DNA of 64,000 bases from Ilex aquifolium (taxonomy: Eukaryota > Streptophyta > Magnoliopsida > Aquifoliales > Aquifoliaceae): NCBI GenBank assembly GCA_951799425.1, contig OX637397.1:744001-808000 (forward strand), given 5' to 3'. The position numbers and the translations under genes were made by a program. A model generated the notes under the pieces. That model did not search any database. It was not told where the DNA came from and saw only the letters and a program-made list of their open reading frames with translations. Below, one piece after another: positions 405-64,000 of this stretch (position 1 is the first letter of the stretch; each line of letters opens with the position of its first letter).

Positions 405-498
405 CCAATATATTGAGATCAAAATTGGTGATTCATCTTCTAACAAGTTCGAAATGGTGATGGAAGTTTGGTATAGTTGGCCATTCCCCTCCACTAGG

Positions 499-506: not shown

Positions 507-532
507 GTAATTTCCCATTCTTTAGTATTTCT

Positions 533-30848: not shown

Positions 30849-33122
30849 GACATAACTTTTTACTCCGGTCTCTGATTAAGATGATTCTTGCTGCATTGTA
30901 AAGAATTCTTGAATCCCTAACCATTTTATTCACATCAAAAGTCATGAAAAATTCACTAGCATGGGCTCTATTGTAACGCAAGTTTGGTGTAATAAGTAGT
31001 CCTCCTTTAAAATGATATAGTATATCGGACATAACTTTTTCTCCCGAACTCGGACTGAGCTAACTCTTGCGGCATTGTAATGAGAACTTGAAACCCTAAC
31101 CAATATATTGAGATCAAAATTGGTGATTCATCTTCTAACAAGTTCGAAATGGTGATAGAAGTTTGGTATAGTTGGCCATTCCCCTCCACTAGGAAAAAAA
31201 AGTAATTTCCCATTGTTTAGTATTTCTGACATAACTTTTTACTCCGGTCTCTGATTAAGATGATTCTTGCTGCATTGTAAAGAATTCTTGAATCCCTAAC
31301 AATTTTATTCACATCAAAAGTCATGAAAAATCCTCTAGCATGGGCTCTATTGTAACGCAAGTTTGGTGTAATAAGTAGTCCACCTTTAAAATGAAATAGT
31401 ATATCGGACATAACTTTTTCTCCCGAACTCGGATTGAGCTAACTCTTGCGGCATTGAAATGAGAACTTGAAACCCTAACCAATATATTGAGATCAAAATT
31501 GGTGATTCATCTTCTAACAAGTTCGAAATTGTGATGGAAGTTTGGTATAGTTGGCCATTCCCCTCCACTAGGAAAAAAAAGTAATTTCCCATTCTTTAGT
31601 ATTTCTGACATAACTTTTTACTCCGGTCTCTGATTAAGATGATTCTTGCTGCATTGTAAAGAATTCTTGAATCCCTAACCATTTTATTCACATCAAAAGT
31701 CATGAAAAATTCACTAGCATGGGCTCTATTGTAACGCAAGTTTGGTGTAATAAGTAGTCCTCCTTTAAAATGATATAGTATATCGGACATAACTTTTTCT
31801 CCCGAACTCGGACTGAGCTAACTCTTGCGGCATTGTAATGAGAACTTGAAACCCTAACCAATATATTGAGATCAAAATTGGTGATTCATCTTCTAACAAG
31901 TTCGAAATGGTGATAGAAGTTTGGTATAGTTGGCCATTCCCCTCCACTAGGAAAAAAAAGTAATTTCCCATTGTTTAGTATTTCTGACATAACTTTTTAC
32001 TCCGGTCTCTGATTAAGATGATTCTTGCTGCATTGTAAAGAATTCTTGAATCCCTAACCATTTTATTCACATCAAAAGTCATGAAAAATCCTCTAGCATG
32101 GGCTCTATTGTAACGCAAGTTTGGTGTAATAAGTAGTCCACCTTTAAAATGAAATAGTATATCGGACATAACTTTTTCTCCCGAACTCGGATTGAGCTAA
32201 CTCTTGCGGCATTGAAATGAGAACTTGAAACCCTAACCAATATATTGAGATCAAAATTGGTGATTCATCTTCTAACAAGTTCGAAATTGTGATGGAAGTT
32301 TGGTATAGTTGGCCATTCCCCTCCACTAGGAAAAAAAAGTAATTTCCCATTCTTTAGTATTTCTGACATAACTTTTTACTCCGGTCTCTGATTAAGATGA
32401 TTCTTGCTGCATTGTAATGAATTCTTGAATCCCTAACCATTTTATTCACATCAAAAGTCATGAAAAATCCACTAGCATGGGCTCTATTGTAACGCAAGTT
32501 TGGTGTAATAAGTAGTCCTCCTTTAAAATGAAATAGTATATCGGACATAACTTTTTCTCCCGAACTCGGACTGAGCTAACTCTTGCGGCATTGTAATGAG
32601 AACTTGAAACCCTAACCAATATATTGAGATCAAAATTGGTGATTCATCTTCTAACAAGTTCGAAATTGTGATGGAAGTTTGGTATAGTTGGCCATTCCCC
32701 TCCACTAGGAAAAAAAAGTAATTTCCCATTGTTTAGTATTTCTGACATAACTTTTTACTCCGGTCTCTGATTAAGATGATTCTTGCTGCATTGTAAAGAA
32801 TTCTTGAATCCCTAACCATTTTATTCACATCAAAAGTCATGAAAAATCCTCTAGCATGGGCTCTATTGTAACGCAAGTTTGGTGTAATAAGTAGTCCACC
32901 TTTAAAATGAAATAGTATATCGGACATAATTTTTTCTCCCGAACTCGGATTGAGCTAACTCTTGCGGCATTGAAATGAGAACTTGAAACCCTAAGCAATA
33001 TATTGAGATCAAAATTGGTGATTCATCTTCTAACAAGTTCGAAATTGTGATGGAAGTTTGGTATAGTTGGCCATTCCCCTCCACTAGGAAAAAAAAGTAA
33101 TTTCCCATTCTTTAGTATTTCT
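30471..33122 (+). repeat. deletion-marked HOR, 7-unit form (2,652 bp)
   Basis: It starts with the deletion unit (30585) but holds seven units before the next deletion unit at 33123. TTCACTAG/TGATATAG and CATTGTTTAG-type units alternate, which fits a gain of one net unit by unequal exchange. A CTAACAATTTT mark near 31299 is shared with the first HOR at 0.9, 5.5 and 7.8 kb. Confidence 0.87.
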
Positions 33123-33500
33123 GACATAACTTTTTACTCCGGTCTCTGATTAAGATGATTCTTGCTGCATTGTAATGAATTCTTGAATCCCTAACCATTT
33201 TATTCACATCAAAAGTCATGAAAAATCCACTAGCATGGCTCTATTGTAACGCAAGTTTGGTGTAATAAGTAGTCCTCCTTTAAAATGAAATAGTATATCG
33301 GACATAACTTTTTCTCCCGAACTCGGACTGAGCTAACTCTTGCGGCATTGTAATGAGAACTTGAAACCCTAACCAATATATTGAGATCAAAATTGGTGAT
33401 TCATCTTCTAACAAGTTCAAAATTGTGATGGAAGTTTGGTATAGTTGGCCATTCCCCTCAACTAGGAAAAAAAAGTAATTTCCCATTCTTTAGTATTTCT
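33123..33500 (+). repeat. 378-bp unit with single-G deletion (5 of 6)
   Basis: Same missing G at 33237-33238, 2,652 bp after the fourth, because the intervening HOR copy holds seven units. Confidence 0.95.
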
Positions 33501-35774
33501 GACATAACTTTTTACTCCGGTCTCTGATTAAGATGATTCTTGCTGCATTGTAAAGAATTCTTGAATCCCTAACCATTTTATTCACATCAAAAGTCATGAA
33601 AAATTCACTAGCATGGGCTCTATTGTAACGCAAGTTTGGTGTAATAAGTAGTCCTCCTTTAAAATGATATAGTATATCGGACATAACTTTTTCTCCCGAA
33701 CTCGGACTGAGCTAACTCTTGCGGCATTGTAATGAGAACTTGAAACCCTAACCAATATATTGAGATCAAAATTGGTGATTCATCTTCTAACAAGTTCGAA
33801 ATGGTGATGGAAGTTTGGTATAGTTGGCCATTCCCCTCCACTAGGAAAAAAAAGTAATTTCCCATTGTTTAGTATTTCTGACATAACTTTTTACTCCGGT
33901 CTCTGATTAAGATGATTCTTGCTGCATTGTAAAGAATTCTTGAATCCCTAACCATTTTATTCACATCAAAAGTCATGAAAAATCTTCTAGCATGGGCTCT
34001 ATTGTAACGCAAGTTTGGTGTAATAAGTAGTCCACCTTTAAAATGAAATAGTATATCGGACATAACTTTTTCTCCCGAACTCGGATTGAGCTAACTCTTG
34101 CGGCATTGAAATGAGAACTTGAAACCCTAACCAATATATTGAGATCAAAATTGGTGATTCATCTTCTAACAAGTTCGAAATTGTGATGGAAGTTTGGTAT
34201 AGTTGGCCATTCCCCTCCACTAGGAAAAAAAAGTAATTTCCCATTCTTTAGTATTTCTGACATAACTTTTTACTCCAGTCTCTGATTAAGATGATTCTTG
34301 CTGCATTGTAAAGAATTCTTGAATCCCTAACCATTTTATTCACATCAAAAGTCATGAAAAATCCTCTAGCATGGGCTCTATTGTAACGCAAGTTTGGTGT
34401 AATAAGTAGTCCACCTTTAAAATGAAATAGTATATCGGACATAACTTTTTCTCCCGAACTCGGATTGAGCTAACTCTTGCGGCATTGAAATGAGAACTTG
34501 AAACCCTAACCAATATATTGAGATCAAAATTGGTGATTCATCTTCTAACAAGTTCGAAATTGTGATGGAAGTTTGGTATAGTTGGCCATTCCCCTCCACT
34601 AGGAAAAAAAAGTAATTTCCCATTCTTTAGTATTTCTGACATAACTTTTTACTCCGGTCACTGATTAAGATGATTCTTGCGGCATTGTAAAGAATTCTTG
34701 AATCCCTAACCATTTTATTCACATCAAAAGTCATGAAAAATCTTCTAGCATGGGCTCTATTGTAACGCAAGTTTGGTGTAATAAGTAGTCCTCCTTTAAA
34801 ATGAAATAGTATATGGGACATAACTTTTTCTCCCGAACTCGGATTGAGCTAACTCTTGCGGCATTGTAATGAGAACTTGAAACCCTAACCAATATATTGA
34901 GATCAAAATTGGTGATTCATCTTCTAACAAGTTCGAAATGGTGATGGAAGTTTGGTATAGTTGGTCATTCCCCTCCACTAGGAAAAAAAAGTAATTTCCC
35001 ATTCTTTAGTATTTCTGACATAACTTTTTACTCCGGTCTCTGATTAAGATGATTCTTGCTGCATTGTAAAGAATTCTTGAATCCCTAACCATTTTATTCA
35101 CATCAAAAGTCATGAAAAATTCACTAGCATGGGCTCTATTGTAACGCAAGTTTGGTGTAATAAGTAGTCCTCCTTTAAAATGATATAGTATATCGGACAT
35201 AACTTTTTCTCCCGAACTCGGACTGAGCTAACTCTTGCGGCATTGTAATGAGAACTTGAAACCCTAACCAATATATTGAGATCAAAATTGGTGATTCATC
35301 TTCTAACAAGTTCGAAATGGTGATGGAAGTTTGGTATAGTTGGCCATTCCCCTCCACTAGGAAAAAAAAGTAATTTCCCATTGTTTAGTATTTCTGACAT
35401 AACTTTTTACTCCGGTCTCTGATTAAGATGATTCTTGCTGCATTGTAAAGAATTCTTGAATCCCTAACCATTTTATTCACATCAAAAGTCATGAAAAATC
35501 CTCTAGCATGGGCTCTATTGTAACGCAAGTTTGGTGTAATAAGTAGTCCACCTTTAAAATGAAATAGTATATCGGACATAACTTTTTCTCCCGAACTCGG
35601 ATTAAGCTAACTCTTGCGGCATTGAAATGAGAACTTGAAACCCTAACCAATATATTGAGATCAAAATTGGTGATTCATCTTCTAACAAGTTCGAAATTGT
35701 GATGGAAGTTTGGTATAGTTGGCCATTCCCCTCCACTAGGAAAAAAAAGTAATTTCCCATTCTTTAGTATTTCT
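33123..35774 (+). repeat. seven units, last deletion-marked start then mixed
   Basis: Begins with the fifth unit carrying the deletion in this series (33237), then leaves the HOR order. Private changes include AAGTTCAAAATTG near 33415, CCCTCAACTAGG near 33455, TACTCCAGTC near 34273, GGTCACTGATT near 34657 and GGATTAAGC near 35601. TTGGTCATTC near 34963 first appears here and becomes a mark of the next block. Confidence 0.78.
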
Positions 35775-38048
35775 GACATAACTTTTTACTCCGGTCTCTG
35801 ATTAATATGATTCTTGCTGCATTGTAAAGAATTCTTGAATCCCTAACCATTTTATTCACATCAAAAGTCATGAAAAATCCTCTAGCATGGGCTCTATTGT
35901 AACGCAAGTTTGGTGTAATAAGTAGTCCACCTTTAAAATGAAATAGTATATCGGACATAACTTTTTCTCCCGAACTCGGATTGAGCTAACTCTTGCGGCA
36001 TTGAAATGAGAACTTGAAACCCTAACCAATATATTGAGATCAAAATTGGTGATTCATCTTCTAACAAGTTCGAAATTGTGATGGAAGTTTGGTATAGTTG
36101 GCCATTCCCCTCCACTAGGAAAAAAAAGTAATTTCCCATTCTTTAGTATTTCTGACATAACTTTTTACTCCGGTCTCTGATTAAGATGATTCTTGCGGCA
36201 TTGTAAAGAATTCTTGAATCCCTAACCATTTTATTCACATCAAAAGTCATGAAAAATCTTCTAGCATGGGCTCTATTGTAACGCAAGTTTGGTGTAATAA
36301 GTAGTCCTCCTTTAAAATGAAATAGTATATCGGACATAACTTTTTCTCCCGAACTCGGATTGAGCTAACTCTTGCGGCATTGTAATGAGAACTTGAAACC
36401 CTAACCAATATATTGAGATCAAAATTGGTGATTCATCTTCTAACAAGTTCGAAATGGTGATGGAAGTTTGGTATAGTTGGCCATTCCCCTCCACTAGGAA
36501 AAAAAAGTAATTTCCCATTCTTTAGTATTTCTGACATAACTTTTTACTCCGGTCTCTGATTAAGATGATTCTTGCTGCATTGTAAAGAATTCTTGAATCC
36601 CTAACCATTTTATTCACATCAAAAGTCAAGAAAAATTCTCTAGCATGGGCTCTATTGTAACGCAAGTTTGGTGTAATAAGTAGTCCTCCTTTAAAATGAA
36701 ATAGTATATGGGACATAACTTTTTCTCCCGAACTCGGATTGAGCTAACTCTTGCGGCATTGTAATGAGAACTTGAAACCCTAACCAATATATTGAGATCA
36801 AAATTGGTGATTCATCTTCTAACAAGTTCGAAATGGTGATGGAAGTTTGGTATAGTTGGTCATTCCCCTCCACTAGGAAAAAAAAGTAATTTCCCATTCT
36901 TTAGTATTTCTGACATAACTTTTTACTCCGGTCTCTGATTAAGATGATTCTTGCTGCATTGTAATGAATTCTTGAATCCCTAACCATTTTATTCACATCA
37001 AAAGTCATGAAAAATCCACTAGCATGGGCTCTATTGTAACGCAAGTTTGGTGTAATAAGTAGTCCTCCTTTAAAATGAAATAGTATATTGGACATAACTT
37101 TTTCTCCCGAACTCGGATTGAGCTAACTCTTGCGGCATTGTAATGAGAACTTGAAACCCTAACCAATATATTGAGATCAAAATTGGTGATTCATCTTCTA
37201 ACAAGTTCGAAATGGTGATGGAAGTTTGGTATAGTTGGTCATTCCCCTCCACTAGGAAAAAAAAGTAATTTCCCATTCTTTAGTATTTCTGACATAACTT
37301 TTTACTCCGGTCTCTGATTAAGATGATTCTTGCTGCATTGTAAAGAATTCTTGAATCCCTAACCATTTTATTCACATCAAAAGTCATGAAAAATTCACTA
37401 GCATGGGCTCTATTGTAACGCAAGTTTGGTGTAATAAGTAGTCCTCCTTTAAAATGATATAGTATATCGGACATAACTTTTTCTCCCGAACTCGGACTGA
37501 GCTAACTCTTGCGGCATTGTAATGAGAACTTGAAACCCTAACCAATATATTGAGATCAAAATTGGTGATTCATCTTCTAACAAGTTCGAAATGGTGATGG
37601 AAGTTTGGTATAGTTGGCCATTCCCCTCCACTAGGAAAAAAAAGTAATTTCCCATTGTTTAGTATTTCTGACATAACTTTTTACTCCGGTCTCTGATTAA
37701 GATGATTCTTGCTGCATTGTAAAGAATTCTTGAATCCCTAACCATTTTATTCACATCAAAAGTCATGAAAAATCCTCTAGCATGGGCTCTATTGTAACGC
37801 AAGTTTGGTGTAATAAGTAGTCCACCTTTAAAATGAAATAGTATATCGGACATAACTTTTTCTCCCGAACTCGGATTGAGCTAACTCTTGCGGCATTGAA
37901 ATGAGAACTTGAAACCCTAACCAATATATTGAGATCAAAATTGGTGATTCATCTTCTAACAAGTTCGAAATTGTGATGGAAGTTTGGTATAGTTGGCCAT
38001 TCCCCTCCACTAGGAAAAAAAAGTAATTTCCCATTCTTTAGTATTTCT
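35775..38048 (+). repeat. 6-unit repeat, copy 1 (2,274 bp)
   Basis: Includes a unit with AAGTCAAGAAAAATTCTC near 36624 (ATG changed to AAG) together with TATATGGGAC and TTGGTCATTC. A GTAATGAATTC unit with TATATTGGAC near 37084 and a TTCACTAG/TGATATAG unit follow. Most of the order returns 2,274 bp later. Confidence 0.85.
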
Positions 38049-40321
38049 GACATAACTTTTTACTCCGGTCTCTGATTAAGATGATTCTTGCTGCATTGTA
38101 AAGAATTCTTGAATCCCTAACCATTTTATTCACATCAAAAGTCATGAAAAATCCTCTAGCATGGGCTCTATTGTAACGCAAGTTTGGTGTAATAAGTAGT
38201 CCACCTTTAAAATGAAATAGTATATCGGACATAACTTTTTCTCCCGAACTCGGATTGAGCTAACTCTTGCGGCATTGAAATGAGAACTTGAAACCCTAAC
38301 CAATATATTGAGATCAAAATTGGTGATTCATCTTCTAACAAGTTCGAAATTGTGATGGAAGTTTGGTATAGTTGGCCATTCCCCTCCACTAGGAAAAAAA
38401 AGTAATTTCCCATTCTTTAGTATTTCTGACATAACTTTTTACTCCGGTCTCTGATTAAGATGATTCTTGCGGCATTGTAAAGAATTCTTGAATCCCTAAC
38501 CATTTTATTCACATCAAAAGTCATGAAAAATCTTCTAGCATGGGCTCTATTGTAACGCAAGTTTGGTGTAATAAGTAGTCCTCCTTTAAAATGAAATAGT
38601 ATATCGGACATAACTTTTTCTCCCGAACTCGGATTGAGCTAACTCTTGCGGCATTGTAATGAGAACTTGAAACCCTAACCAATATATTGAGATCAAAATT
38701 GGTGATTCATCTTCTAACAAGTTCGAAATGGTGATGGAAGTTTGGTATAGTTGGCCATTCCCCTCCACTAGGAAAAAAAAGTAATTTCCCATTCTTTAGT
38801 ATTTCTGACATAACTTTTTACTCCGGTCTCTGATTAAGATGATTCTTGCTGCATTGTAAAGAATTCTTGAATCCCTAACCATTTTATTCACATCAAAAGT
38901 CAAGAAAAATTCTCTAGCATGGGCTCTATTGTAACGCAAGTTTGGTGTAATAAGTAGTCCTCCTTTAAAATGAAATAGTATATGGGACATAACTTTTTCT
39001 CCCGAACTCGGATTGAGCTAACTCTTGCGGCATTGTAATGAGAACTTGAAACCCTAACCAATATATTGAGATCAAAATTGGTGATTCATCTTCTAACAAG
39101 TTCGAAATGGTGATGGAAGTTTGGTATAGTTGGTCATTCCCCTCCACTAGGAAAAAAAAGTAATTTCCCATTCTTTAGTATTTCTGACATAACTTTTTAC
39201 TCCGGTCTCTGATTAAGATGATTCTTGCTGCATTGTAATGAATTCTTGAATCCCTAACCATTTTATTCACATCAAAAGTCATGAAAAATCCACTAGCATG
39301 GGCTCTATTGTAACGCAAGTTTGGTGTAATAAGTAGTCCTCCTTTAAAATGAAATAGTATATCGGACATAACTTTTTCTCCCGAACTCGGACTGAGCTAA
39401 CTCTTGCGGCATTGTAATGAGAACTTGAAACCCTAACCAATATATTGAGATCAAAATTGGTGATTCATCTTCTAACAAGTTCGAAATTGTGATGGAAGTT
39501 TGGTATAGTTGGCCGTTCCCCTCCACTAGGAAAAAAAAGTAATTTCCCATTCTTTAGTATTTCTGACATAACTTTTTACTCCGGTCTCTGATTAAGATGA
39601 TTCTTGCTGCATTGTAAAGAATTCTTGAATCCCTAACCATTTTATTCACATCAAAAGTCATGAAAAATTCACTAGCATGGGCTCTATTGGAACGCAAGTT
39701 TGGTGTAATAAGTAGTCCTCCTTTAAAATGATATAGTATATCGGACATAACTTTTTCTCCCGAACTCGGACTGAGCTAACTCTTGCGGCATTGAAATGAG
39801 AACTTGAAACCCTAACCAATATATTGAGATCAAAATTGGTGATTCATCTTCTAACAAGTTCGAAATGGTGATGGAAGTTTGGTTTAGTTGACCATTCCCC
39901 TCCACTAGGAAAAAAAAGTAATTTCTCATTCTTTAGTATTTCTGACATAACTTTTTACTATGGTCTCTGATTAAGATGATTCTTGCTGCATTGTAAAGAA
40001 TTCTTGAATCCCTAACCATTTTATTCACATCAAAAGTCATGAAAAATCCTCTAGCATGGCTCTATTGTAACGCAAGTTTGGTGTAATAAGTAGTCCTCCT
40101 TTAAAATGATATAGTATATCGGACATAACTTTTTCTCCCGAACTCGGACTGAGCTAACTCTTGCGGCATTGTAATGAGAACTTGAAACCCTAACCAATAT
40201 ATTGAGATCAAAATTGGTGATTCATCTTCTAACAAGTTCGAAATGGTGATGGAAGTTTGGTATAGTTGGCCATTCCCCTCCACTAGGAAAAAAAAGTAAT
40301 TTCCCATTATTTAGTATTTCT
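38049..40321 (+). repeat. 6-unit repeat, copy 2 (2,273 bp)
   Basis: AAGTCAAGAAAAATTCTC (near 38898), TATATGGGAC and TTGGTCATTC are each 2,274 bp after copy 1. The end differs: the fifth unit has CTATTGGAACGC near 39686, and the sixth is a 378-bp deletion unit on a different sequence background. Confidence 0.83.
39944..40321 (+). repeat. 378-bp unit with single-G deletion (6 of 6), different background
   Basis: The missing G at 40058-40059 sits on a CCTCTAG and GTAAAGAATTC background and not on the CCACTAG and GTAATGAATTC background of the other five. The unit also has ACTATGGTC near 39958 in place of ACTCCGGTC. It is either a repeat loss in the GGG run or the same deletion moved by gene conversion. 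Confidence 0.93.
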
Positions 40322-42595
40322 GACATAACTTTTTACTCCGGTCTCTGATTAAGATGATTCTTGCTGCATTGTACAGAATTCTTGAATCCCTAACCATTTT
40401 ATTCACATCAAAAGTCATGAAAAATCCTCTAGCATGGGCTCTATTGTAACGCAAGTTTGGTGTAATAAGTAGTCCACCTTTAAAATGAAATAGTATATCG
40501 GACATAACTTTTTCTCCCGAACTCGGATTGAGCTAACTCTTGCGGCATTGAAATGAGAACTTGAAACCCTAACCAATATATTGAGATCAAAATTGGTGAT
40601 TCATCTTCTAACAAGTTCGAAATTGTGATGGAAGTTTGGTATAGTTGGCCATTCCCCTCCACTAGGAAAAAAAAGTAATTTCCCATTCTTTAGTATTTCT
40701 GACATAACTTTTTACTCCGGTCTCTGATTAAGATGATTCTTGCGGCATTGTAAAGAATTCTTGAATCCCTAACCATTTTATTCACATCAAAAGTCATGAA
40801 AAATCTTCTAGTATGGGCTCTATTGTAACGCAAGTTTGGTGTAATAAGTAGTCCTCCTTTAAAATGACATAGTATATCGGACATAACTTTTTCTCCCGAA
40901 CTCGGATTGAGCTAACTCTTGCGGCATTGTAATGAGAACTTGAAACCCTAACCAATATATTGAGATCAAAATTGGTGATTCATCTTCTAACAAGTTCGAA
41001 ATGGTGATGGAAGTTTGGTATAGTTGGCCATTCCCCTCCACTAGGAAAAAAAAGTAATTTCCCATTCTTTAGTATTTCTGACATAACTTTTTACTCCGGT
41101 CTCTGATTAAGATGATTCTTGCTGCATTGTAAAGAATTCTTGAATCCCTAACCATTTTATTCACATCAAAAGTCATGAAAAATCCTCTAGCATGGGCTCT
41201 ATTGTAACGCAAGTTTGGTGTAATAAGTAGTCCACCTTTAAAATGAAATAGTATATCGGACATAACTTTTTCTCCCGAACTCGGATTGAGCTAACTCTTG
41301 CGGCATTGAAATGAGAACTTGAAACCCTAACCAATATATTCAGATCAAAATAGGTGATTCATCTTCTAACAAGTTCGAAATTGTGATGGAAGTTTGGTAT
41401 AGTTGGCCATTCCCCTCCACTAGAAAAAAAAAGTAATTTCCCATTCTTTAGTATTTCTGACATAACTTTTTACTCCGGTCTCTGATTAAGATGATTCTTG
41501 CTGCATTGTAAAGAATTCTTGAATCCCTAACCATTTTATTCACATCAAAAGTCATGAAAAATCCTCTAGCATGGGCTCTATTGTAACGCAAGTTTGGTGT
41601 AATAAGTAGTCCACCTTTAAAATGAAATAGTATATCGGACATAACTTTTTCTCCCGAACTCGGATTGAGCTAACTCTTGCGGCATTGAAATGAGAACTTG
41701 AAACCCTAACCAATATATTCAGATCAAAATTGGTGATTCATCTTCTAACAAGTTCGAAATTGTGATGGAAGTTTGGTATAGTTGGCCATTCCCCTCCACT
41801 AGGAAAAAAAAGTAATTTCCCATTCTTTAGTATTTCTGACATAACTTTTTACTCCGGTCTCTGATTAAGATGATTCTTGCGGCATTGTAAAGAATTCTTG
41901 AATCCCTAACCATTTTATTCACATCAAAAGTCATGAAAAATCTTCTAGCATGGGCTCTATTGTAACGCAAGTTTGGTGTAATAAGTAGTCCTCCTTTAAA
42001 ATGAAATAGTATATGGGACATAACTTTTTCTCCCGAACTCGGATTGAGCTAACTCTTGCGGCATTGTAATGAGAACTTGAAACCCTAACCAATATATTTA
42101 GATCAAAATTGGTGATTCATCTTCTAACAAGTTCGAAATGGTGATGGAAGTTTGGTATAGTTGGCCATTCCCCTCCACTAGGAAAAAAAAGTAATTTCCC
42201 ATTCTTTAGTATTTCTGACATAACTTTTTACTCCGGTCTCTGATTAAGATGATTCTTGCTGCATTGTAAAGAATTCTTGAATCCCTAACCATTTTATTCA
42301 CATCAAAAGTCATGAAAAATCCTCTAGCATGGGCTCTATTGTAACGCAAGTTTGGTATAATAAGTAGTCCTCCTTTAAAATGAAATAGTATATCGGACAT
42401 AACTTTTTCTCCCGAACTCGGATTGAGCTAACTCTTGCGGCATTGAAATGAGAACTTGAAACCCTAACCAATATATTGAGATCAAAATTGGTGATTCATC
42501 TTCTAACAAGTTCGAAATGGTGATGGAAGTTTGGTATAGTTGGCCATTCCCCTCCACTAGGAAAAAAAAGTAATTTCCCATTATTTAGTATTTCT
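40322..42595 (+). repeat. 6-unit form (a-b-c-d-e-f) of the 6-4-4-6 block, copy 1 (2,274 bp)
   Basis: Unit a has CATTATTTAG and GTACAGAATTC; unit b has CTAGTATGGG and TGACATAG; unit c has TATTCAGATCAAAATAGG; unit d has TATTCAGATC; unit e has TATATGGGAC and TATTTAGATC; unit f has TTTGGTATAATAAG. All six types return at 45628-47901, 5,306 bp later. Confidence 0.9.
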
Positions 42596-44111
42596 GACAT
42601 AACTTTTTACTCCGGTCTCTGATTAAGATGATTCTTGCTGCATTGTACAGAATTCTTGAATCCCTAACCATTTTATTCACATCAAAAGTCATGAAAAATC
42701 CTCTAGCATGGGCTCTATTGTAACGCAAGTTTGGTGTAATAAGTAGTCCACCTTTAAAATGAAATAGTATATCGGACATAACTTTTTCTCCCGAACTCGG
42801 ATTGAGCTAACTCTTGCGGCATTGAAATGAGAACTTGAAACCCTAACCAATATATTCAGATCAAAATAGGTGATTCATCTTCTAACAAGTTCGAAATTGT
42901 GATGGAAGTTTGGTATAGTTGGCCATTCCCCTCCACTAGGAAAAAAAAGTAATTTCCCATTCTTTAGTATTTCTGACATAACTTTTTACTCCGGTCTCTG
43001 ATTAAGATGATTCTTGCTGCATTGTAAAGAATTCTTGAATCCCTAACCATTTTATTCACATCAAAAGTCATGAAAAATCCTCTAGCATGGGCTCTATTGT
43101 AACGCAAGTTTGGTGTAATAAGTAGTCCACCTTTAAAATGAAATAGTATATCGGACATAACTTTTTCTCCCGAACTCGGATTGAGCTAACTCTTGCGGCA
43201 TTGAAATGAGAACTTGAAACCCTAACCAATATATTCAGATCAAAATTGGTGATTCATCTTCTAACAAGTTCGAAATTGTGATGGAAGTTTGGTATAGTTG
43301 GCCATTCCCCTCCACTAGGAAAAAAAAGTAATTTCCCATTCTTTAGTATTTCTGACATAACTTTTTACTCCGGTCTCTGATTAAGATGATTCTTGCGGCA
43401 TTGTAAAGAATTCTTGAATCCCTAACCATTTTATTCACATCAAAAGTCATGAAAAATCTTCTAGCATGGGCTCTATTGTAACGCAAGTTTGGTGTAATAA
43501 GTAGTCCTCCTTTAAAATGAAATAGTATATGGGACATAACTTTTTCTCCCGAACTCGGATTGAGCTAACTCTTGCGGCATTGTAATGAGAACTTGAAACC
43601 CTAACCAATATATTTAGATCAAAATTGGTGATTCATCTTCTAACAAGTTCGAAATGGTGATGGAAGTTTGGTATAGTTGGCCATTCCCCTCCACTAGGAA
43701 AAAAAAGTAATTTCCCATTCTTTAGTATTTCTGACATAACTTTTTACTCCGGTCTCTGATTAAGATGATTCTTGCTGCATTGTAAAGAATTCTTGAATCC
43801 CTAACCATTTTATTCACATCAAAAGTCATGAAAAATCCTCTAGCATGGGCTCTATTGTAACGCAAGTTTGGTATAATAAGTAGTCCTCCTTTAAAATGAA
43901 ATAGTATATCGGACATAACTTTTTCTCCCGAACTCGGATTGAGCTAACTCTTGCGGCATTGAAATGAGAACTTGAAACCCTAACCAATATATTGAGATCA
44001 AAATTGGTGATTCATCTTCTAACAAGTTCGAAATGGTGATGGAAGTTTGGTATAGTTGGCCATTCCCCTCCACTAGGAAAAAAAAGTAATTTCCCATTAT
44101 TTAGTATTTCT
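42596..44111 (+). repeat. 4-unit HOR, copy 1 of the 6-4-4-6 block (1,516 bp)
   Basis: The first unit joins the B half of type a (CATTATTTAG, GTACAGAATTC near 42646) to the A half of type c (TATTCAGATCAAAATAGG near 42852). Types d, e and f follow, and type b is absent. The unit reads as a crossover product that removed two units from the 6-unit form. Confidence 0.92.
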
Positions 44112-45627
44112 GACATAACTTTTTACTCCGGTCTCTGATTAAGATGATTCTTGCTGCATTGTACAGAATTCTTGAATCCCTAACCATTTTATTCACATCA
44201 AAAGTCATGAAAAATCCTCTAGCATGGGCTCTATTGTAACGCAAGTTTGGTGTAATAAGTAGTCCACCTTTAAAATGAAATAGTATATCGGACATAACTT
44301 TTTCTCCCGAACTCGGATTGAGCTAACTCTTGCGGCATTGAAATGAGAACTTGAAACCCTAACCAATATATTCAGATCAAAATAGGTGATTCATCTTCTA
44401 ACAAGTTCGAAATTGTGATGGAAGTTTGGTATAGTTGGCCATTCCCCTCCACTAGGAAAAAAAAGTAATTTCCCATTCTTTAGTATTTCTGACATAACTT
44501 TTTACTCCGGTCTCTGATTAAGATGATTCTTGCTGCATTGTAAAGAATTCTTGAATCCCTAACCATTTTATTCACATCAAAAGTCATGAAAAATCCTCTA
44601 GCATGGGCTCTATTGTAACGCAAGTTTGGTGTAATAAGTAGTCCACCTTTAAAATGAAATAGTATATCGGACATAACTTTTTCTCCCGAACTCGGATTGA
44701 GCTAACTCTTGCGGCATTGAAATGAGAACTTGAAACCCTAACCAATATATTCAGATCAAAATTGGTGATTCATCTTCTAACAAGTTCGAAATTGTGATGG
44801 AAGTTTGGTATAGTTGGCCATTCCCCTCCACTAGGAAAAAAAAGTAATTTCCCATTCTTTAGTATTTCTGACATAACTTTTTACTCCGGTCTCTGATTAA
44901 GATGATTCTTGCGGCATTGTAAAGAATTCTTGAATCCCTAACCATTTTATTCACATCAAAAGTCATGAAAAATCTTCTAGCATGGGCTCTATTGTAACGC
45001 AAGTTTGGTGTAATAAGTAGTCCTCCTTTAAAATGAAATAGTATATGGGACATAACTTTTTCTCCCGAACTCGGATTGAGCTAACTCTTGCGGCATTGTA
45101 ATGAGAACTTGAAACCCTAACCAATATATTTAGATCAAAATTGGTGATTCATCTTCTAACAAGTTCGAAATGGTGATGGAAGTTTGGTATAGTTGGCCAT
45201 TCCCCTCCACTAGGAAAAAAAAGTAATTTCCCATTCTTTAGTATTTCTGACATAACTTTTTACTCCGGTCTCTGATTAAGATGATTCTTGCTGCATTGTA
45301 AAGAATTCTTGAATCCCTAACCATTTTATTCACATCAAAAGTCATGAAAAATCCTCTAGCATGGGCTCTATTGTAACGCAAGTTTGGTATAATAAGTAGT
45401 CCTCCTTTAAAATGAAATAGTATATCGGACATAACTTTTTCTCCCGAACTCGGATTGAGCTAACTCTTGCGGCATTGAAATGAGAACTTGAAACCCTAAC
45501 CAATATATTGAGATCAAAATTGGTGATTCATCTTCTAACAAGTTCGAAATGGTGATGGAAGTTTGGTATAGTTGGCCATTCCCCTCCACTAGGAAAAAAA
45601 AGTAATTTCCCATTATTTAGTATTTCT
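44112..45627 (+). repeat. 4-unit HOR, copy 2 of the 6-4-4-6 block (1,516 bp)
   Basis: Repeats 42596-44111 with every mark displaced by 1,516 bp, including the same a/c chimera (GTACAGAATTC near 44162 and TCAGATCAAAATAGG near 44372). I see no difference at the diagnostic sites, so the duplication came after the chimera formed. Confidence 0.93.
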
Positions 45628-47901
45628 GACATAACTTTTTACTCCGGTCTCTGATTAAGATGATTCTTGCTGCATTGTACAGAATTCTTGAATCCCTAAC
45701 CATTTTATTCACATCAAAAGTCATGAAAAATCCTCTAGCATGGGCTCTATTGTAACGCAAGTTTGGTGTAATAAGTAGTCCACCTTTAAAATGAAATAGT
45801 ATATCGGACATAACTTTTTCTCCCGAACTCGGATTGAGCTAACTCTTGCGGCATTGAAATGAGAACTTGAAACCCTAACCAATATATTGAGATCAAAATT
45901 GGTGATTCATCTTCTAACAAGTTCGAAATTGTGATGGAAGTTTGGTATAGTTGGCCATTCCCCTCCACTAGGAAAAAAAAGTAATTTCCCATTCTTTAGT
46001 ATTTCTGACATAACTTTTTACTCCGGTCTCTGATTAAGATGATTCTTGCGGCATTGTAAAGAATTCTTGTATCACTAACCATTTTATTCACATCAAAAGT
46101 CATGAAAAATCTTCTAGTATGGGCTCTATTGTAACGCAAGTTTGGTGTAATAAGTAGTCCTCCTTTAAAATGACATAGTATATCGGACATAACTTTTTCT
46201 CCCGAACTCGGATTGAGCTAACTCTTGCGGTATTGTAATGAGAACTTGAAACCCTAACCAATATATTGAGATCAAAATTGGTGATTCATCTTCTAACAAG
46301 TTCGAAATGGTGATGGAAGTTTGGTATAGTTGGCCATTCCCCTCCACTAGGAAAAAAAAGTAATTTCCCATTCTTTAGTATTTCTGACATAACTTTTTAC
46401 TCCGGTCTCTGATTAAGATGATTCTTGCTGCATTGTAAAGAATTCTTGAATCCCTAACCATTTTATTCACATCAAAAGTCATGAAAAATCCTCTAGCATG
46501 GGCTCTATTGTAACGCAAGTTTGGTGTAATAAGTAGTCCACCTTTAAAATGAAATAGTATATCGGACATAACTTTTTCTCCCGAACTCGGATTGAGCTAA
46601 CTCTTGCGGCATTGAAATGAGAACTTGAAACCCTAACCAATATATTCAGATCAAAATAGGTGATTCATCTTCTAACAAGTTCGAAATTGTGATGGAAGTT
46701 TGGTATAGTTGGCCATTCCCCTCCACTAGGAAAAAAAAGTAATTTCCCATTCTTTAGTATTTCTGACATAACTTTTTACTCCGGTCTCTGATTAAGATGA
46801 TTCTTGCTGCATTGTAAAGAATTCTTGAATCCCTAACCATTTTATTCACATCAAAAGTCATGAAAAATCCTCTAGCATGGGCTCTATTGTAACGCAAGTT
46901 TGGTGTAATAAGTAGTCCACCTTTAAAATGAAATAGTATATCGGACATAACTTTTTCTCCCGAACTCGGATTGAGCTAACTCTTGCGGCATTGAAATGAG
47001 AACTTGAAACCCTAACCAATATATTGAGATCAAAATTGGTGATTCATCTTCTAACAAGTTCGAAATTGTGATGGAAGTTTGGTATAGTTGGCCATTCCCC
47101 TCCACTAGGAAAAAAAAGTAATTTCCCATTCTTTAGTATTTCTAACATAACTTTTTACTCCGGTCTCTGATTAAGATGATTCTTGCGGCATTGTAAAGAA
47201 TTCTTGAATCCCTAACCATTTTATTCACATCAAAAGTCATGAAAAATCTTCTAGCATGGGCTCTATTGTAACGCAAGTTTGGTGTAATAAGTAGTCCTCC
47301 TTTAAAATGAAATAGTATATGGGACATAACTTTTTCTCCCGAACTCGGATTGAGCTAACTCTTGCGGCATTGTAATGAGAACTTGAAACCCTAACCAATA
47401 TATTTAGATCAAAATTGGTGATTCATCTTCTAACAAGTTCGAAATGGTGATGGAAGTTTGGTATAGTTGGCCATTCCCCTCCACTAGGAAAAAAAAGTAA
47501 TTTCCCATTCTTTAGTATTTCTGACATAACTTTTTACTCCGGTCTCTGATTAAGATGATTCTTGCTGCATTGTAAAGAATTCTTGAATCCCTAACCATTT
47601 TATTCACATCAAAAGTCATGAAAAATCCTCTAGCATGGGCTCTATTGTAACGCAAGTTTGGTATAATAAGTAGTCCTCCTTTAAAATGAAATAGTATATC
47701 GGACATAACTTTTTCTCCCGAACTCGGATTGAGCTAACTCTTGCGGCATTGAAATGAGAACTTGAAACCCTAACCAATATATTGAGATCAAAATTGGTGA
47801 TTCATCTTCTAACAAGTTCGAAATGGTGATGGAAGTTTGGTTTAGTTTACCATTCCCCTCCACTAGGAAAAAAAAGTAATTTCTCATTCTTTAGTATTTC
47901 T
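45628..47901 (+). repeat. 6-unit form of the 6-4-4-6 block, copy 2 (2,274 bp)
   Basis: The a-b-c-d-e-f order of 40322-42595 returns. Small differences: TTGTATCACTAACC near 46068 and TTGCGGTATTG near 46225 in unit b, TATTGAGATC in place of TATTCAGATC in unit d, and TTCTAACATAAC near 47142 in unit e. Unit f (47523-47901) also opens the 13-unit repeat. Confidence 0.9.
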
Positions 47902-50900
47902 GACATAACTTTTTACTCCGGTCTCTGATTAAGATGATTCTTGCTGCATTGTAAAGAATTCTTGAATCCCTAACCATTTTATTCACATCAAAAGTCATGA
48001 AAAATCCTCTAGCATGGGCTCTATTGTAACGCAAGTTTGGTGTAATAAGTAGTCCTCCTTTAAAATGAAATAGTATATCGGACATAACTTTTTCTCCCGA
48101 ACTCGGATTGAGCTAACTCTTGCGGCATTGTAATGAGAACTTGAAACCCTAACCAATATATTGAGATCAAAATTGGTGATTCATCTTCTAACAAGTTCGA
48201 AATGGTGATGGAAGTTTGGTATAGTTGACCATTCCCCTCCACTAGGAAAAAAAAGTAATTTCCCATTCTTTAGTATTTCTGACATAACTTTTTACTCCGG
48301 TCTCTGATTAAGATGATTCTTGCTACATTGTAAAGAATTCTTGAATCCCTAACCATTTTATTCACATCAAAAGTCATGAAAAATCCACTAGCATGGGCTC
48401 TATTGTAACGCAAGTTTGGTGTAATAAGTAGTCCTCCTTTAAAATGAAATAGTATATCGGACATAACTTTTTCTCCCGAACTCGGATTGAGCTAACTCTT
48501 GCGGCATTGTAATGAGAACTTGAAACCCTAACCAATATATTGAGATCAAAATTGGTGATTCATCTTCTAACAAGTTCGAAATGGTGATGGAAGTTTGGTA
48601 TAGTTGGCCATTCCCCTCCGCTAGGAAAAAAAAGTAATTTCCCATTCTTTAGTATTTCTGACATAACTTTTTACTCCGGTCTCTGATTAAGATGATTCTT
48701 GCTGCATTGTAAAGAATTCTTGAATCCCTAACCATTTTATTCACATCAAAAGTCATGAAAAATCCTCTAGCATGGGCTCTATTGTAACACAAGTTTGGTG
48801 TAATAAGTAGTCCTCCTTTAAAATGAAATAGTATATCGGACATAACTTTTTCTCCCGAACTCGGATTGAGCTAACTCTTGCGGCATTGAAATGAGAACTT
48901 GAAACCCTAACCAATATATTGAGATCAAAATTGGTGATTCATCTTCTAACAAGTTCGAAATGGTGATGGAAGTTTGGTATAGTTGGCCATTCCCCTCCAC
49001 TAGGAAAAAAAAGTAATTTCCCATTCTTTACTATTTCTGACATAACTTTTTACTCCGGTCTCTGATTAAGATGATTCTTGCGGCATTGTAAAGAATTCTT
49101 GAATCCCTAACCATTTTATTCACATCAAAAGTCAAGAAAAATTCTCTAGCATGGGCTCTATTGTAACGCAAGTTTGGTGTAATAAGTAGTCCTCCTTTAA
49201 AATGAAATAGTATATCGGACATAACTTTTTCTCCCGAACTCGGATTGAGCTAACTCTTGCGGCATTGTAATGAGAACTTGAAACCCTAACCAATATATTG
49301 AGATCAAAATTGGTGATTCATCTTCTAACAAGTTCGAAATGGTGATGGAAGTTTGGTATAGTTGGCCATTCCCCTCCACTAGGAAAAAAAAGTAATTTCC
49401 CATTCTTTAGTATTTCTGACATAACTTTTTACTCCGGTCTCTGATTAAGATGATTCTTGCTGCATTGTAAAGAATTCTTGAATCCCTAACCATTTTATTC
49501 ACATCAAAAGTCATGAAAAATCCTCTAGCATGGGCTCTATTGTAACGCAAGTTTGGTGTAATAAGTAGTCCACCTTTAAAATGAAATAGTATATCGGACA
49601 TAACTTTTTCTCCCGAACTCGGATTGAGCTAACTCTTGCGGCATTGAAATGAGAACTTGAAACCCTAACCAATATATTGAGATCAAAATTGGTGATTCAT
49701 CTTCTAACAAGTTCGAAATTGTGATGGAAGTTTGGTATAGTTGGCCATTCCCCTCCACTAGGAAAAAAAAGTAATTTCCCATTCTTTAGTATTTCTTACA
49801 TAACTTTTTACTCCGGTCTCTGATTAAGATGATTCTTGCGGCATTGTAAAGAATTCTTGAATCCCTAACCATTTTATTCACATCAAAAGTCATGAAAAAT
49901 CTTCTAGCATGGGCTCTATTGTAACGCAAGTTTGGTGTAATAAGTAGTCCTCCTTTAAAATGAAATAGTATATCGGACATAACTTTTTCTCCCGAACTCG
50001 GATTGAGCTAACTCTTGCGGCATTGTAATGAGAACTTGAAACCCTAACCAATATATTGAGATCAAAATTGGTGATTCATCTTCTAACAAGTTCGAAATGG
50101 TGATGGAAGTTTGGTATAGTTGGCCATTCCCCTCCACTAGGAAAAAAAAGTAATTTCCCATTCTTTAGTATTTCTGACATAACTTTTTACTCCGGTCTCT
50201 GATTAAGATGATTCTTGCTGCATTGTAAAGAATTCTTGAATCCCTAACCATTTTATTCACATCAAAAGTCAAGAAAAATTCTCTAGCATGGGCTCTATTG
50301 TAACACAAGTTTGGTGTAATAAGTAGTCCTCCTTTAAAATGAAATAGTATATCGGACATAACTTTTTCTCCCGAACTCGGATTGAGCTAACTCTTGCAGC
50401 ATTGTAATGAGAACTTGAAACCCTAACCAATATATTGAGATCAAAATTGGTGATTCATCTTCTAACAAGTTCGAAATGGTGATGGAAGTTTGGTATAGTT
50501 GGCCATTCCCCTCCACTAGGAAAAAAAAGTAATTTCCCATTCTTTAGTATTTCTGACATAACTTTTTACTCCGGTCTCTGATTAAGATGATTCTTGCTGC
50601 ATTGTAAAGAATTCTTGAATCCCTAACCATTTTATTCACATCAAAAGTCATGAAAAATCCACTAGCATGGGCTCTATTGTAACGCATGTTTGGTGTAATA
50701 AGTAGTCCTCCTTTAAAATGAAATAGTATATCGGACATAACTTTTTCTCCCGAACTCGGACTGAGCTAACTCTTGCGGCATTGTAATGAGAACTTGAAAC
50801 CCTAACCAATATATTGAGATCAAAATTGGTGATTCATCTTCTAACAAGTTCGAAATTGTGATGGAAGTTTGGTATAGTTGGCCATTCCCCTCCACTAGGA

Positions 50901-52449
50901 AAAAAAAGTAATTTCCCATTCTTTAGTATTTCTGACATAACTTTTTACTCCGGTCTCTGATTAAGATGATTCTTGCGGCATTGTAAAGAATTCTTGAATC
51001 CCTAACCATTTTATTCACATCAAAAGTCATGAAAAATCTTCTAGCATGGGCTCTATTGTAACGCAAGTTTGGTGTAATAAGTAGTCCTCCTTTAAAATGA
51101 AATAGTATATCGGACATAACTTTTTCTCCCGAACTCGGATTGAGCTAACTCTTGCGGCATTGTAATGAGAACTTGAAACCCTAACCAATATATTGAGATC
51201 AAAATTGGTGATTCATCTTCTAACAAGTTCGAAATGGTGATGGAAATTTGGTATAGTTGGCCATTCCCCTCCACTAGGAAAAAAAAGTAATTTCCCATTC
51301 TTTAGTATTTCTGACATAACTTTTTACTCCGGTCTCTGATTAAGATGATTCTTGCTGCATTGTAAAGAATTCTTGAATCCCTAACCATTTTATTCACATC
51401 AAAAGTCATGAAAAATCCACTAGCATGGGCTCTATTGTAACGCAAGTTTGGTGTAATAAGTAATCCTCCTTTAAAATGAAATAGTATATCTGACATAACT
51501 TTTTCTCCCGAACTCGGACTGAGCTAACTCTTGCGGCATTGTAATGAGAACTTGAAACCCTAACCAGTATATTGAGATCAAAATTGGTGATTCATCTTCT
51601 AACAAGTTCGAAATTGTGATGGAAGTTTGGTATAGTTGGCCATTCCCCTCCACTAGGAAAAAAAAGTAATTTCTCATTCTTTAGTATTTCTGACATAACT
51701 TTTTACTCCGGTCTCTGATTAAGATGATTCTTGCTGCATTGTAAAGAATTCTTGAATCCCTAACCATTTTATTCACATCAAAAGTCATGAAAAATCCTCT
51801 AGCATGGGCTCTATTGTAACGCAAGTTTGGTGTAATAAGTAGTCCTCCTTTAAAATGAAATAGTATATCGGACATAACTTTTTCTCCCGAACTCGGATTG
51901 AGCTAACTCTTGCGGCATTGTAATGAGAACTTGAAACCCTAACCAATATATTGAGATCAAAATTGGTGATTCATCTTCTAACAAGTTCGAAATGGTGATG
52001 GAAGTTTGGTATAGTTGGCCATTCCCCTCCGCTAGGAAAAAAAAGTAATTTCCCATTCTTTAGTATTTCTGACATAACTTTTTACTCCGGTCTCTGATTA
52101 AGATGATTCTTGCTGCATTGTAAAGAATTCTTGAATCCCTAACCATTTTATTCACATCAAAAGTCATGAAAAATCCTCTAGCATTGGCTCTATTGTAACG
52201 CAAGTTTGGTGTAATAAGTAGTCCTCCTTTAAAATGAAATAGTATATCGGACATAACTTTTTCTCCCGAACTCGGATTGAGCTAACTCTTGCGGCATTGA
52301 AATGAGAACTTGAAACCCTAACCAATATATTGAGATCAAAATTGGTGATTCATCTTCTAACAAGTTCGAAATGGTGATGGAAGTTTGGTATAGTTGGCCA
52401 TTCCCCTCCACTAGGAAAAAAAAGTAATTTCCCATTCTTTAGTATTTCT
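47523..52449 (+). repeat. 13-unit repeat, copy 1 (4,927 bp)
   Basis: It begins with the TTTGGTATAATAAG unit and includes two AAGTCAAGAAAAATTCTC units (near 49131 and 50269). A GTAACGCATGTTTGG unit near 50685 follows, then units marked GGAAATTTGG (near 51243), TTTCTCATT and CCTCCGCTAGG (near 52027). The first eight units match 52450-55481 in order. The last five match 58514-60408. Confidence 0.82.
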
Positions 52450-55400
52450 GACATAACTTTTTACTCCGGTCTCTGATTAAGATGATTCTTGCTGCATTGT
52501 AAAGAATTCTTGAATCCCTAACCATTTTATTCACATCAAAAGTCATGAAAAATCCTCTAGCATGGGCTCTATTGTAACGCAAGTTTGGTATAATAAGTAG
52601 TCCTCCTTTAAAATGAAATAGTATATCGGACATAACTTTTTCTCCCGAACTCGGATTGAGCTAACTCTTGCGGCATTGAAATGAGAACTTGAAACCCTAA
52701 CCAATATATTGAGATCAAAATTGGTGATTCATCTTCTAACAAGTTCGAAATGGTGATGGAAGTTTGGTTTAGTTGACCATTCCCCTCCACTAGGAAAAAA
52801 AAGTAATTTCTCATTCTTTAGTATTTCTGACATAACTTTTTACTCCGGTCTCTGATTAAGATGATTCTTGCTGCATTGTAAAGAATTCTTGAATCCCTAA
52901 CCATTTTATTCACATCAAAAGTCATGAAAAATCCTCTAGCATGGGCTCTATTGTAACGCAAGTTTGGTGTAATAAGTAGTCCTCCTTTAAAATGAAATAG
53001 TATATCGGACATAACTTTTTCTCCCGAACTCGGATTGAGCTAACTCTTGCGGCATTGTAATAAGAACTTGAAACCCTAACCAATATATTGAGATCAAAAT
53101 TCGTGATTCATCTTCTAACAAGTTCGAAATGGTGATGGAAGTTTGGTATAGTTGACCATTCCCCTCCACTAGGAAAAAAAAGTAATTTCCCATTCTTTAG
53201 TATTTCTGACATAACTTTTTACTCCGGTCTCTGATTAAGATGATTCTTGCTGCATTGTAAAGAATTCTTGAATCCCTAACCATTTTATTCACATCAAAAG
53301 TCATGAAAAATCCACTAGCATGGGCTCTATTGTAACGCAAGTTTGGTGTAATAAGTAGTCCTCCTTTAAAATGAAAGAGTATATCGGACATAACTTTTTC
53401 TCCCGAACTCGGATTGAGCTAACTCTTGCGGCATTGTAATGAGAACTTGAAACCCTAACCAATATATTGAGATCAAAATTGGTGATTCATCTTCTAACAA
53501 GTTCGAAATGGTGATGGAAGTTTGGTATAGTTGGCCATTCCCCTCCACTAGGAAAAAAAAGTAATTTCCCATTCTTTAGTATTTCTGACATAACTTTTTA
53601 CTCCGGTCTCTGATTAAGATGATTCTTGCTGCATTGTAAAGAATTCTTGAATCCCTAACCATTTTATTCACATCCAAAGTCATGAAAAATCCTCTAGCAT
53701 GGGCTCTATTGTAACGCAAGTTTGGTGTAATAAGTAGTCCTCCTTTAAAATGAAATAGTATATCGGACATAACTTTTTCTCCCGAACTCGGATTGAGCTA
53801 ACTCTTGCGGCATTGAAATGAGAACTTGAAACCCTAACCAATATATTGAGATCAAAATTGGTGATTCATCTTCTAACAAGTTCGAAATGGTGATGGAAGT
53901 TTGGTATAGTTGGCCATTCCCCTCCACTAGGAAAAAAAAGTAATTTCCCATTCTTTAGTATTTCTGACATAACTTTTTACTCCGGTCTCTGATTAAGATG
54001 ATTCTTGCGGCATTGTAAAGAATTCTTGAATCCCTAACCATTTTATTCACATCAAAAGTCAAGAAAAATTCTCTAGCATGGGCTCTATTGTAACGCAAGT
54101 TTGGTGTAATAAGTAGTCCTCCTTTAAAATGAAATAGTATATCGGACATAACTTTTTCTCCCGAACTCGGATTGAGCTAACTCTTGCGGCATTGTAATGA
54201 GAACTTGAAACCCTAACCAATATATTGAGATCAAAATTGGTGATTCATCTTCTAACAAGTTCGAAATGGTGATGGAAGTTTGGTATAGTTGGCCATTCCC
54301 CTCCACAAGGAAAAAAAAGTAATTTCCCATTCTTTAGTATTTCTGACATAACTTTTTACTCCGGTCTCTGATTAAGATGATTCTTGCTGCATTGTAAAGA
54401 ATTCTTGAATCCCTAACCATTTTATTCACATCAAAAGTCATGAAAAATCCTCTAGCATGGGCTCTATTGTAACGCAAGTTTGGTGTAATAAGTAGTCCAC
54501 CTTTAAAATGAAATAGTATATCGGACATAACTTTTTCTCCCGAACTCGGATTGAGCTAACTCTTGCGGCATTGAAATGAGAACTTGAAACCCTAACCAAT
54601 ATATTGAGATCAAAATTGGTGATTCATCTTCTAACAAGTTCGAAATGGTGATGGAAGTTTGGTATAGTTGGCCATTCCCCTCCACTAGGAAAAAAAAGTA
54701 ATTTCCCATTCTTTAGTATTTCTGACATAACTTTTTACTCCGGTCTCAATTTAAGATGATTCTTGCGGCATTGTAAAGAATTCTTGAATCCCTAACCATT
54801 TTATTCACATCAAAAGTCATGAAAAATCTTCTAGCATGGGCTCTATTGTAACGCAAGTTTGGTGTAATAAGTAGTCCTCCTTTAAAATGAAATAGTATAT
54901 CGGACATAACTTTTTCTCCCGAACTCGGATTGAGCTAACTCTTGCGGCATTGTAATGAGAACTTGAAACCCTAACCAATATATTGAGATCAAAATTGGTG
55001 ATTCATCTTCTAACAAGTTCGAAATGGTGATGGAAGTTTGGTATAGTTGGCCATTCCCCTCCACTAGGAAAAAAAAGTAATTTCCCATTCTTTAGTATTT
55101 CTGACATAACTTTTTACTCCGGTCTCTGATTAAGATGATTCTTGCTGCATTGTAAAGAATTCTTGAATCCCTAACCATTTTATTCACATCAAAAGTCAAG
55201 AAAAATTCTCTAGCATGGGCTCTATTGTAACGCAAGTTTGGTGTAATAAGTAGTCCTCCTTTAAAATGAAATAGTATATCGGACATAACTTTTTCTCCCG
55301 AACTCGGATTGAGCTAACTCTTGCGGCATTGTAATGAGAACTTGAAACCCTAACCAATATATTGAGATCAAAATTGGTGATTCATCTTCTAACAAGTTCG

Positions 55401-55481
55401 AAATGGTGATGGAAGTTTGGTATAGTTGGCCATTCCCCTCCACTAGGAAAAAAAAGTAATTTCCCATTCTTTAGTATTTCT
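52450..55481 (+). repeat. 13-unit repeat, partial copy 2 (8 units, 3,032 bp)
   Basis: Matches the start of the 47523 copy unit for unit at 4,927 bp displacement (TTTGGTATAATAAG near 52586, then a CCACTAG unit, and AAGTCAAGAAAAATTCTC near 54058 and 55196). Private changes include AATTCGTGATTC near 53100, ATGAAAGAGTATATC near 53375, CACATCCAAAGTC near 53674, CCACAAGG near 54304 and GTCTCAATTTAAG near 54746. Confidence 0.82.
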
Positions 55482-56618
55482 GACATAACTTTTTACTCCG
55501 GTCTCTGATTAAGATGATTCTTGCTGCATTGTAATGAATTCTTGAATCCCTAACCATTTTATTCACATCAAAAGTCATGAAAAATCCACTAGCATGGGCT
55601 CTATTGTAACGCATGTTTGGTGTAATAAGTAGTCCTCCTTTAAAATGAAATAGTATATCGGACATAACTTTTTCTCCCGAACTCGGACTGAGCTAACTCT
55701 TGCGGCATTGTAATGAGAACTTGAAACCCTAACCAATATATTGAGATCAAAATTGGTGATTCATCTTCTAACAAGTTCGAAATTGTGATGGAAGTTTGGT
55801 ATAGTTGGCCATTCCCCTCCACTAGGAAAAAAAAGTAATTTCCCATTCTTTAGTATTTCTGACATAACTTTTTACTCCGGTCTCTGATTAAGATGATTCT
55901 TGCTGCATTGTAATGAATTCTTGAATCCCTAACCATTTTATTCACATCAAAAGTCATGAAAAATCCACTAGCATGGGCTCTATTGTAACGCATGTTTGGT
56001 GTAATAAGTAGTCCTCCTTTAAAATGAAATAGTATATCGGACATAACTTTTTCTCCCGAACTCGGACTGAGCTAACTCTTGCGGCATTGTAATGAGAACT
56101 TGAAACCCTAACCAATATATTGAGATCAAAATTGGTGATTCATCTTCTAACAAGTTTGAAATGGTGATGGAAGTTTGGTATAGTTGGCCATTCCCCTCCA
56201 CTAGGAAAAAAAAGTAATTTCCCATTCTTTAGTATTTCTGACATAACTTTTTACTCCGGTCTCTGATTAAGATGATTCTTGCTGCATTGTAAAGAATTCT
56301 TGAATCCCTAACCATTTTATTCACATCAAAAGTCAAGAAAAATTCTCTAGCATGGGCTCTATTGTAACGCAAGTTTGGTGTAATAAGTAGTCCTCCTTTA
56401 AAATGAAATAGTATATCGGACATAACTTTTTCTCCCGAACTCGGATTGAGCTAACTCTTGCGGCATTGTAATGAGAACTTGAAACCCTAACCAATATATT
56501 GAGATCAAAATTGGTGATTCATCTTCTAACAAGTTCGAAATGGTGATGGAAGTTTGGTATAGTTGGCCATTCCCCTCCACTAGGAAAAAAAAGTAATTTC
56601 CCATTCTTTAGTATTTCT
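55482..56618 (+). repeat. three units introducing the GCATGTTTGG type
   Basis: Two adjacent units share GTAATGAATTC, CCACTAG and AACGCATGTTTGG (near 55611 and 55990). One AAGTCAAGAAAAATTCTC unit follows. AAGTTTGAAATGG near 56153 is private. The GCATGTTTGG type then dominates to about 62 kb. Confidence 0.8.
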
Positions 56619-63998: not shown

Positions 63999-64000
63999 GA

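Follow-up and report, generated by a model that had tools for sequence, protein, structure and literature searches.

A 379 bp satellite array near one end of C7

The window analysed here, a stretch of 64 000 bp corresponding to C7:744001-808000, is filled by a single head-to-tail satellite array with a period of 379 bp, 168.9 copies and 98% matches. In the phase that we chose it contains 168 whole units, of which 162 are 379 bp and 6 are 378 bp long; they comprise 109 distinct sequences and 90 variable columns. Each 379 bp unit is built from two diverged halves of 180 and 199 bp, and 133 of the 209 aligned columns are identical between them.

1..64000, plus strand: 379 bp satellite, each unit made of two diverged halves (from the period, the interval lengths and the alignment of one half against the other)

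Contig C7 starts with (CCCTAAA)n, the plant-type telomere repeat. Satellite in plus orientation was found at all 15 points of C7 sampled between 50 and 950 kb and at none of the four points between 1.0 and 1.5 Mb; satellite in minus orientation is present in the last 10 kb of C7. As the array lies near a chromosome end and C7 begins with the plant-type telomere repeat, the 379 bp repeat is a subtelomeric plant satellite. In the assembly search, which covered about 800 Mb, unit signatures were matched on many other contigs among the matches listed. A literature search for the identity of the satellite by unit length found none, which is not a claim that it is absent from print.

Five of the six 378 bp units (units 62, 68, 74, 80 and 87; 23624-33472) have a common gap at unit position 143 and are spaced six or seven units apart. 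The sixth is unit 105, immediately before the a-b-c-d-e-f block described below.

Unit order between 40294 and 47873

Unit types were defined by their differences from the window consensus, given by unit position. Units 106-125 (40294-47873) are arranged as a b c d e f, X d e f, X d e f, a b' c d' e' f', with the following types.

a: 16A, 81C, 183A, 258A, 331T
b: 72G, 134T, 140T, 196C
c: 183A, 258A, 290C, 301A, 331T; 373A in the first copy only
d: 183A, 258A, 290C, 331T
e: 72G, 134T, 206G, 290T
f: 169A, 258A
X: 16A, 81C, 183A, 258A, 290C, 301A, 331T; length 379 bp
b': b plus 92T, 96A, 253T
d': d without 290C
e': e plus 29A
f': f plus 348T, 354T, 355A

The blocks formed by these units are located as follows.

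40294..42567, plus strand: first six-unit copy, a b c d e f, units 106-111 (from unit variants)
42568..44083, plus strand: first four-unit copy, X d e f, with X at 42568-42946 (from unit variants and comparison of raw letters)
44084..45599, plus strand: second four-unit copy, X d e f (no difference from the first in 1516 bp)
45600..47873, plus strand: second six-unit copy, a b' c d' e' f', units 120-125 (from unit variants)

The two four-unit copies are identical to each other across 1516 bp, whereas the units inside one block differ at several sites. Units d, e and f of both four-unit copies are those of the first six-unit copy; the second six-unit copy has other letters at position 290 of d, at 29 of e and at 348, 354 and 355 of f. 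A block of several units is thus repeated whole, and its copies are more alike than the units within it, as in a higher-order repeat (HOR). The many homogenised block copies of a full HOR are not present, however: there are two six-unit copies and three copies of the four-unit segment.

Unit X is a hybrid of types a and c

Four sites (16, 81, 290 and 301) separate types a and c in both copies; a fifth, 373, separates a from the first c alone. X is of the a type at 16 and 81 and of the c type at 290 and 301, with one switch in between. At 373, it agrees with a and the second c and disagrees with the first c. The switch can be placed in both copies of X.

42649..42856, plus strand: interval of the a-to-c switch in the first X (discriminating sites 42648 and 42857)
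44165..44372, plus strand: interval of the a-to-c switch in the second X (discriminating sites 44164 and 44373)

A single switch across four sites is weak evidence alone, as it is a feature of 6 of the 14 mixed patterns; the hybrid reading draws its strength from the unit order, the assembly-wide count of the left-half signature and the score of the lag-4 self-match (see below). The exact left-half signature shared by a and X (16A with 81C) occurs four times in the 800 Mb assembly, always in this block; the search was exact, and copies with a further change inside the pattern would escape it. The right-half signature of X (290C with 301A) also occurs elsewhere in the genome, in matches which were counted at one mismatch and are mixed with another variant. 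Locally, 301A is found in only 4 of 621 units, all within this block.

The same 621 units, from 240 kb of the array, were used to look for relatives of X. The nearest are both a units and the second c, with two differences each, followed at three differences by the first c, three d units and one unit at C7:644853. Outside X itself, the longest exact match from the left is to both a units (289 positions) and the longest from the right is to the second c (298 positions). With its single switch and unchanged length of 379 bp, X has the form that unequal exchange between units leaves behind. X is an in-register single-switch a/c hybrid.

A preliminary description of the locus had read the order as a-b-c-d-e-f, twice (a/c)-d-e-f, and again a-b-c-d-e-f, which units 106-125 bear out, as do the letters of X for its a/c make-up. 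The exchange had been placed at 42650-42850 with a copy at 44165-44370, in agreement with the discriminating sites given above. Two checks had been proposed there. Across the variant sites there is one switch and no repeated alternation between a and c, and among the 621 units no third type comes closer to X than do the a units and the second c.

Self-matches suggest nested tandem steps

Self-comparisons were made at lags that are multiples of the unit, and the matches were verified on raw letters. A segment of length l present in n tandem copies is expected to give a run of (n-1) x l plus the overlap at the junction. At a lag of 1516 bp (four units), the self-match extends from 41133 to 44372, that is over 3240 bp with one mismatch (41424), and is flanked by the a/c-discriminating sites 41132 and 44373. 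Its length equals 2 x 1516 + 208, and the overlap of 208 bp is exactly the stretch in which a and c are identical. The order is therefore that expected from three tandem copies of one segment, the match being one lag shorter than the copies plus the overlap and ending where the parents differ. The score of the lag-4 self-match is 122, compared with a maximum of 48 in 20 shuffles of the unit order.

41133..45888, plus strand: three tandem copies of a segment comprising the right part of c, d, e, f and the left part of a, plus the 208 bp overlap (from the lag-1516 self-match)

A second match, at a lag of 5306 bp (14 units, which are 6 plus the 8 inserted), covers 40173-42535. It is 2363 bp long, equal to 2274 + 89, and contains six mismatches.

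40173..42535, plus strand: trace of an older six-unit tandem duplication with its junction in unit f (from the lag-5306 match)

Up to position 347, unit f shows no difference from f' (C7:791495) or from the unit at C7:796422. Its right part belongs to a common type that occurs in unit 105 as well and points to no particular parent. A unit of the f' type without 354T is also found at unit 138 (52422), and the next unit has 11T and 355A, as does the unit after f'. As a unit with these two letters follows in both places, we take f' to be the older form; f, in turn, looks like the junction product of the six-unit duplication.

At 7e-9 per site per year, the Arabidopsis rate, one mismatch in 3240 bp and six in 2363 bp correspond to ages of about 22 000 and 180 000 years. 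Conversion can reset such differences, and from the dating we rely only on the order, with the six-unit step the older and the four-unit step the younger.

Proposed history and gain versus loss of units

From these matches it is probable that a four-unit segment was copied twice more in tandem within an older six-unit duplication, leaving the hybrid X. In the first step, a six-unit block a b c d e f' would have been duplicated in tandem, and its junction would have produced f, with the left part from f' and the right part of the common type found in the unit preceding a. Later, a segment that begins halfway through c, includes d, e and f, and stops halfway through the following a would have gained two further tandem copies. 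The junction, where the left of a meets the right of c, would lie inside the 208 bp identical stretch and create X. The exchange is likely to have been unequal and in register, between sister or homologous arrays, with units added and not removed. A template switch during replication would leave the same sequence as unequal crossover, and the sequence does not separate the two.

The economy of possible routes was examined by an event search, which allowed up to three in-register events, duplications or deletions resolved to half a unit, and intermediates of up to 36 units; it ignores gene conversion and point changes and counts a triplication as two events. Starting from one six-unit block, the minimum is three events, and the nine solutions found consist of duplications only (six-unit, four-unit, four-unit). 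From two six-unit copies, the minimum is two events, again with nine solutions and none with a deletion. The duplication route means a net gain of eight units for the array.

The preliminary description had instead explained the four-unit block by the loss of exactly two units. In such a history at least three six-unit copies would have existed, an a/c exchange within one of them would have taken out two units and left X d e f, and that four-unit block would then have been duplicated. The final order is identical, and from three or four six-unit copies this route is as short as the other: the minimum is two events, and every solution found (11 and 13, respectively) contains a deletion. A precedent comes from human D17Z1, where a 13-mer arose from a 16-mer according to PMC9549924. 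The absence of 373A from X speaks against the triplication reading. This letter of the first c is rare (2 of 621 units), and X is closer to the second c; the triplication reading therefore needs a later change in the first c.

On the other side, the deletion solutions need at least three starting copies, so that from a single six-unit block the loss route costs at least one extra event. The assembly contains no further exact a-left signature that would point to an extra six-unit copy. Variant sharing also favours duplication, as the four-unit copies carry d, e and f of the first six-unit copy. The lower divergence of the four-unit copies from the first six-unit copy (1 mismatch in 3240 bp, against 6 in 2363 bp between the six-unit copies) is by itself a weak argument against deletion: for an old third six-unit copy about 3.8 differences would be expected per 1516 bp and one is seen, with a Poisson chance of about 0.11. 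Loss of two units is possible only if a further six-unit copy once existed, and we consider it unlikely. Judged by the minimum routes and the shared variants, the event seems better put as a gain than as a loss. Of the earlier interpretation, the single-switch hybrid and the descent of the four-unit block from the six-unit block are supported; the two-unit loss, with a minimum route from one block made of duplications only, and the rarity of the event (see below) are not.

The extra four-unit copies or the hybrid might also have been made by the assembler. Arrays of near-identical units are hard to assemble, and the order is known here from the assembly. Such an artefact is nevertheless very improbable: the junction is in register, the hybrid is present twice in identical form, and the surrounding copies are told apart by the rare letters 373A, 92T, 96A, 253T, 29A and 354T, each found in 1 to 3 of 621 units.

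Least probable, and hardly credible, is a gene conversion that copied an a tract onto the left of c in a pre-existing c-d-e-f tandem; it would likewise give an X with a on the left, c on the right and a single switch, but it needs a separate four-unit duplication besides, and the lag-1516 match begins and ends at the switch sites, an agreement for which duplication alone accounts.

The reverse polarity, with the four-unit form as ancestor of the six-unit form, was rejected from the unit order. It would require two units to be inserted midway in X at two or more places, or six-unit blocks to be copied later to both flanks.

Frequency of tandem runs in the array

For a census of such events, we analysed a contiguous 240 kb (C7:620001-860000) at in-register lags of 1-20 units. 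It included 621 of 623 intervals; the two left out are 2071 bp long and carry an insertion. In this region, 60 self-match runs score above 40, while 20 shuffles of the unit order gave one such run and a maximum of 48. An earlier control with five shuffles and odd lags up to 59 had a maximum of 35. Among the 60 runs, 26 reach at least 0.95 of their own lag; 22 of those score above 48, and 17 of the 22 reach at least one full lag, although some of the 17 overlap and may be non-independent, and run ends can also come from later changes. Eleven of the 17 have a junction overlap of less than one unit, which is an upper figure for cleanly readable junctions.

The preliminary description had called a readable ancestor-product pair of this kind uncommon. 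This is not supported: 240 kb of the same array contain 17 full-lag tandem runs with scores beyond the shuffle maximum, and the block is a good example of an ordinary, frequent type of event. Three-copy runs account for 2 of the 17, this block and a two-unit triple.

The latter lies at 56447-58815 of the window, where a two-unit segment is present in three tandem copies with a junction overlap of 95 bp and one mismatch. The top-scoring run of the 240 kb, at C7:674210-681836, is a duplicated block of 10 units with two mismatches and a junction overlap of 51 bp.

There is an even chance, in our estimation, that most turnover of the array consists of recent, small in-register tandem amplifications, each of about 2-11 units, whose nested junctions can be read in order such that the history of the whole array can be rebuilt. 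If this is true, hybrid junction units would allow a step-by-step reconstruction for the entire array.

Comparison with other satellites

Growth and turnover of repeats by unequal crossover were reportedly modelled by Smith in 1976, a work to which both PMC9549924 and PMC8122249 refer. As in that model, similar units here would have exchanged out of step; the model is general, while the present block is one local example with resolved junctions. The event fits the unequal crossing-over model as far as the arrangement of units can tell.

Unequal crossing over is reviewed in PMC8122249 as a standard model of satellite evolution. For human alpha satellite, PMC9549924 describes hybrid monomers as abundant, structural variants as usually being insertions or deletions of whole monomers, and the 13-mer of D17Z1 as derived from the 16-mer by deletion. 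The block resembles alpha satellite, as described there, in the gain or loss of whole units in an HOR and in a hybrid junction unit of unchanged length. It differs in the repeats themselves, which in human are centromeric monomers of about 171 bp and here are 379 bp units near a chromosome end, about 98% alike, with two or three copies per block. The comparison with the D17Z1 13-mer (PMC9549924) is similar: in both cases a shorter repeat comes from a longer one, but the 13-mer is described as a deleted variant, whereas here the shorter route is by duplication, and the short form consists of no more than three segment copies.

The block thus provides a worked example of satellite growth, in which two nested events have readable junction units and the unit order gives the sequence of events. 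It illustrates that a hybrid unit together with a shorter repeat does not alone imply loss of units. The general view is unchanged, since unequal exchange is expected to produce such events and they are common in this array.

Insertions and related arrays

The two intervals of 2071 bp in the 240 kb region, C7:832047-834117 and C7:836392-838462, are satellite units interrupted by about 1.7 kb of unrelated sequence. Judged by its TG...CA ends and a 5 bp repeat on both sides, the insert looks like a solo LTR. As the two copies are 4345 bp apart and differ at two positions, a later tandem duplication of the array probably took the solo-LTR-like insert with it.

Near the other end of C7, at 41041100-41090274, the 290C+301A right-half signature occurs many times, with spacings that are multiples of 381 bp. 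A variant with 290C, without 301A and with a different neighbouring base is found at C9:35757705-35964039. Its copies are spaced by approximately whole multiples of 380 bp, and some of the spacings are regular, which suggests a higher-order pattern of that array.
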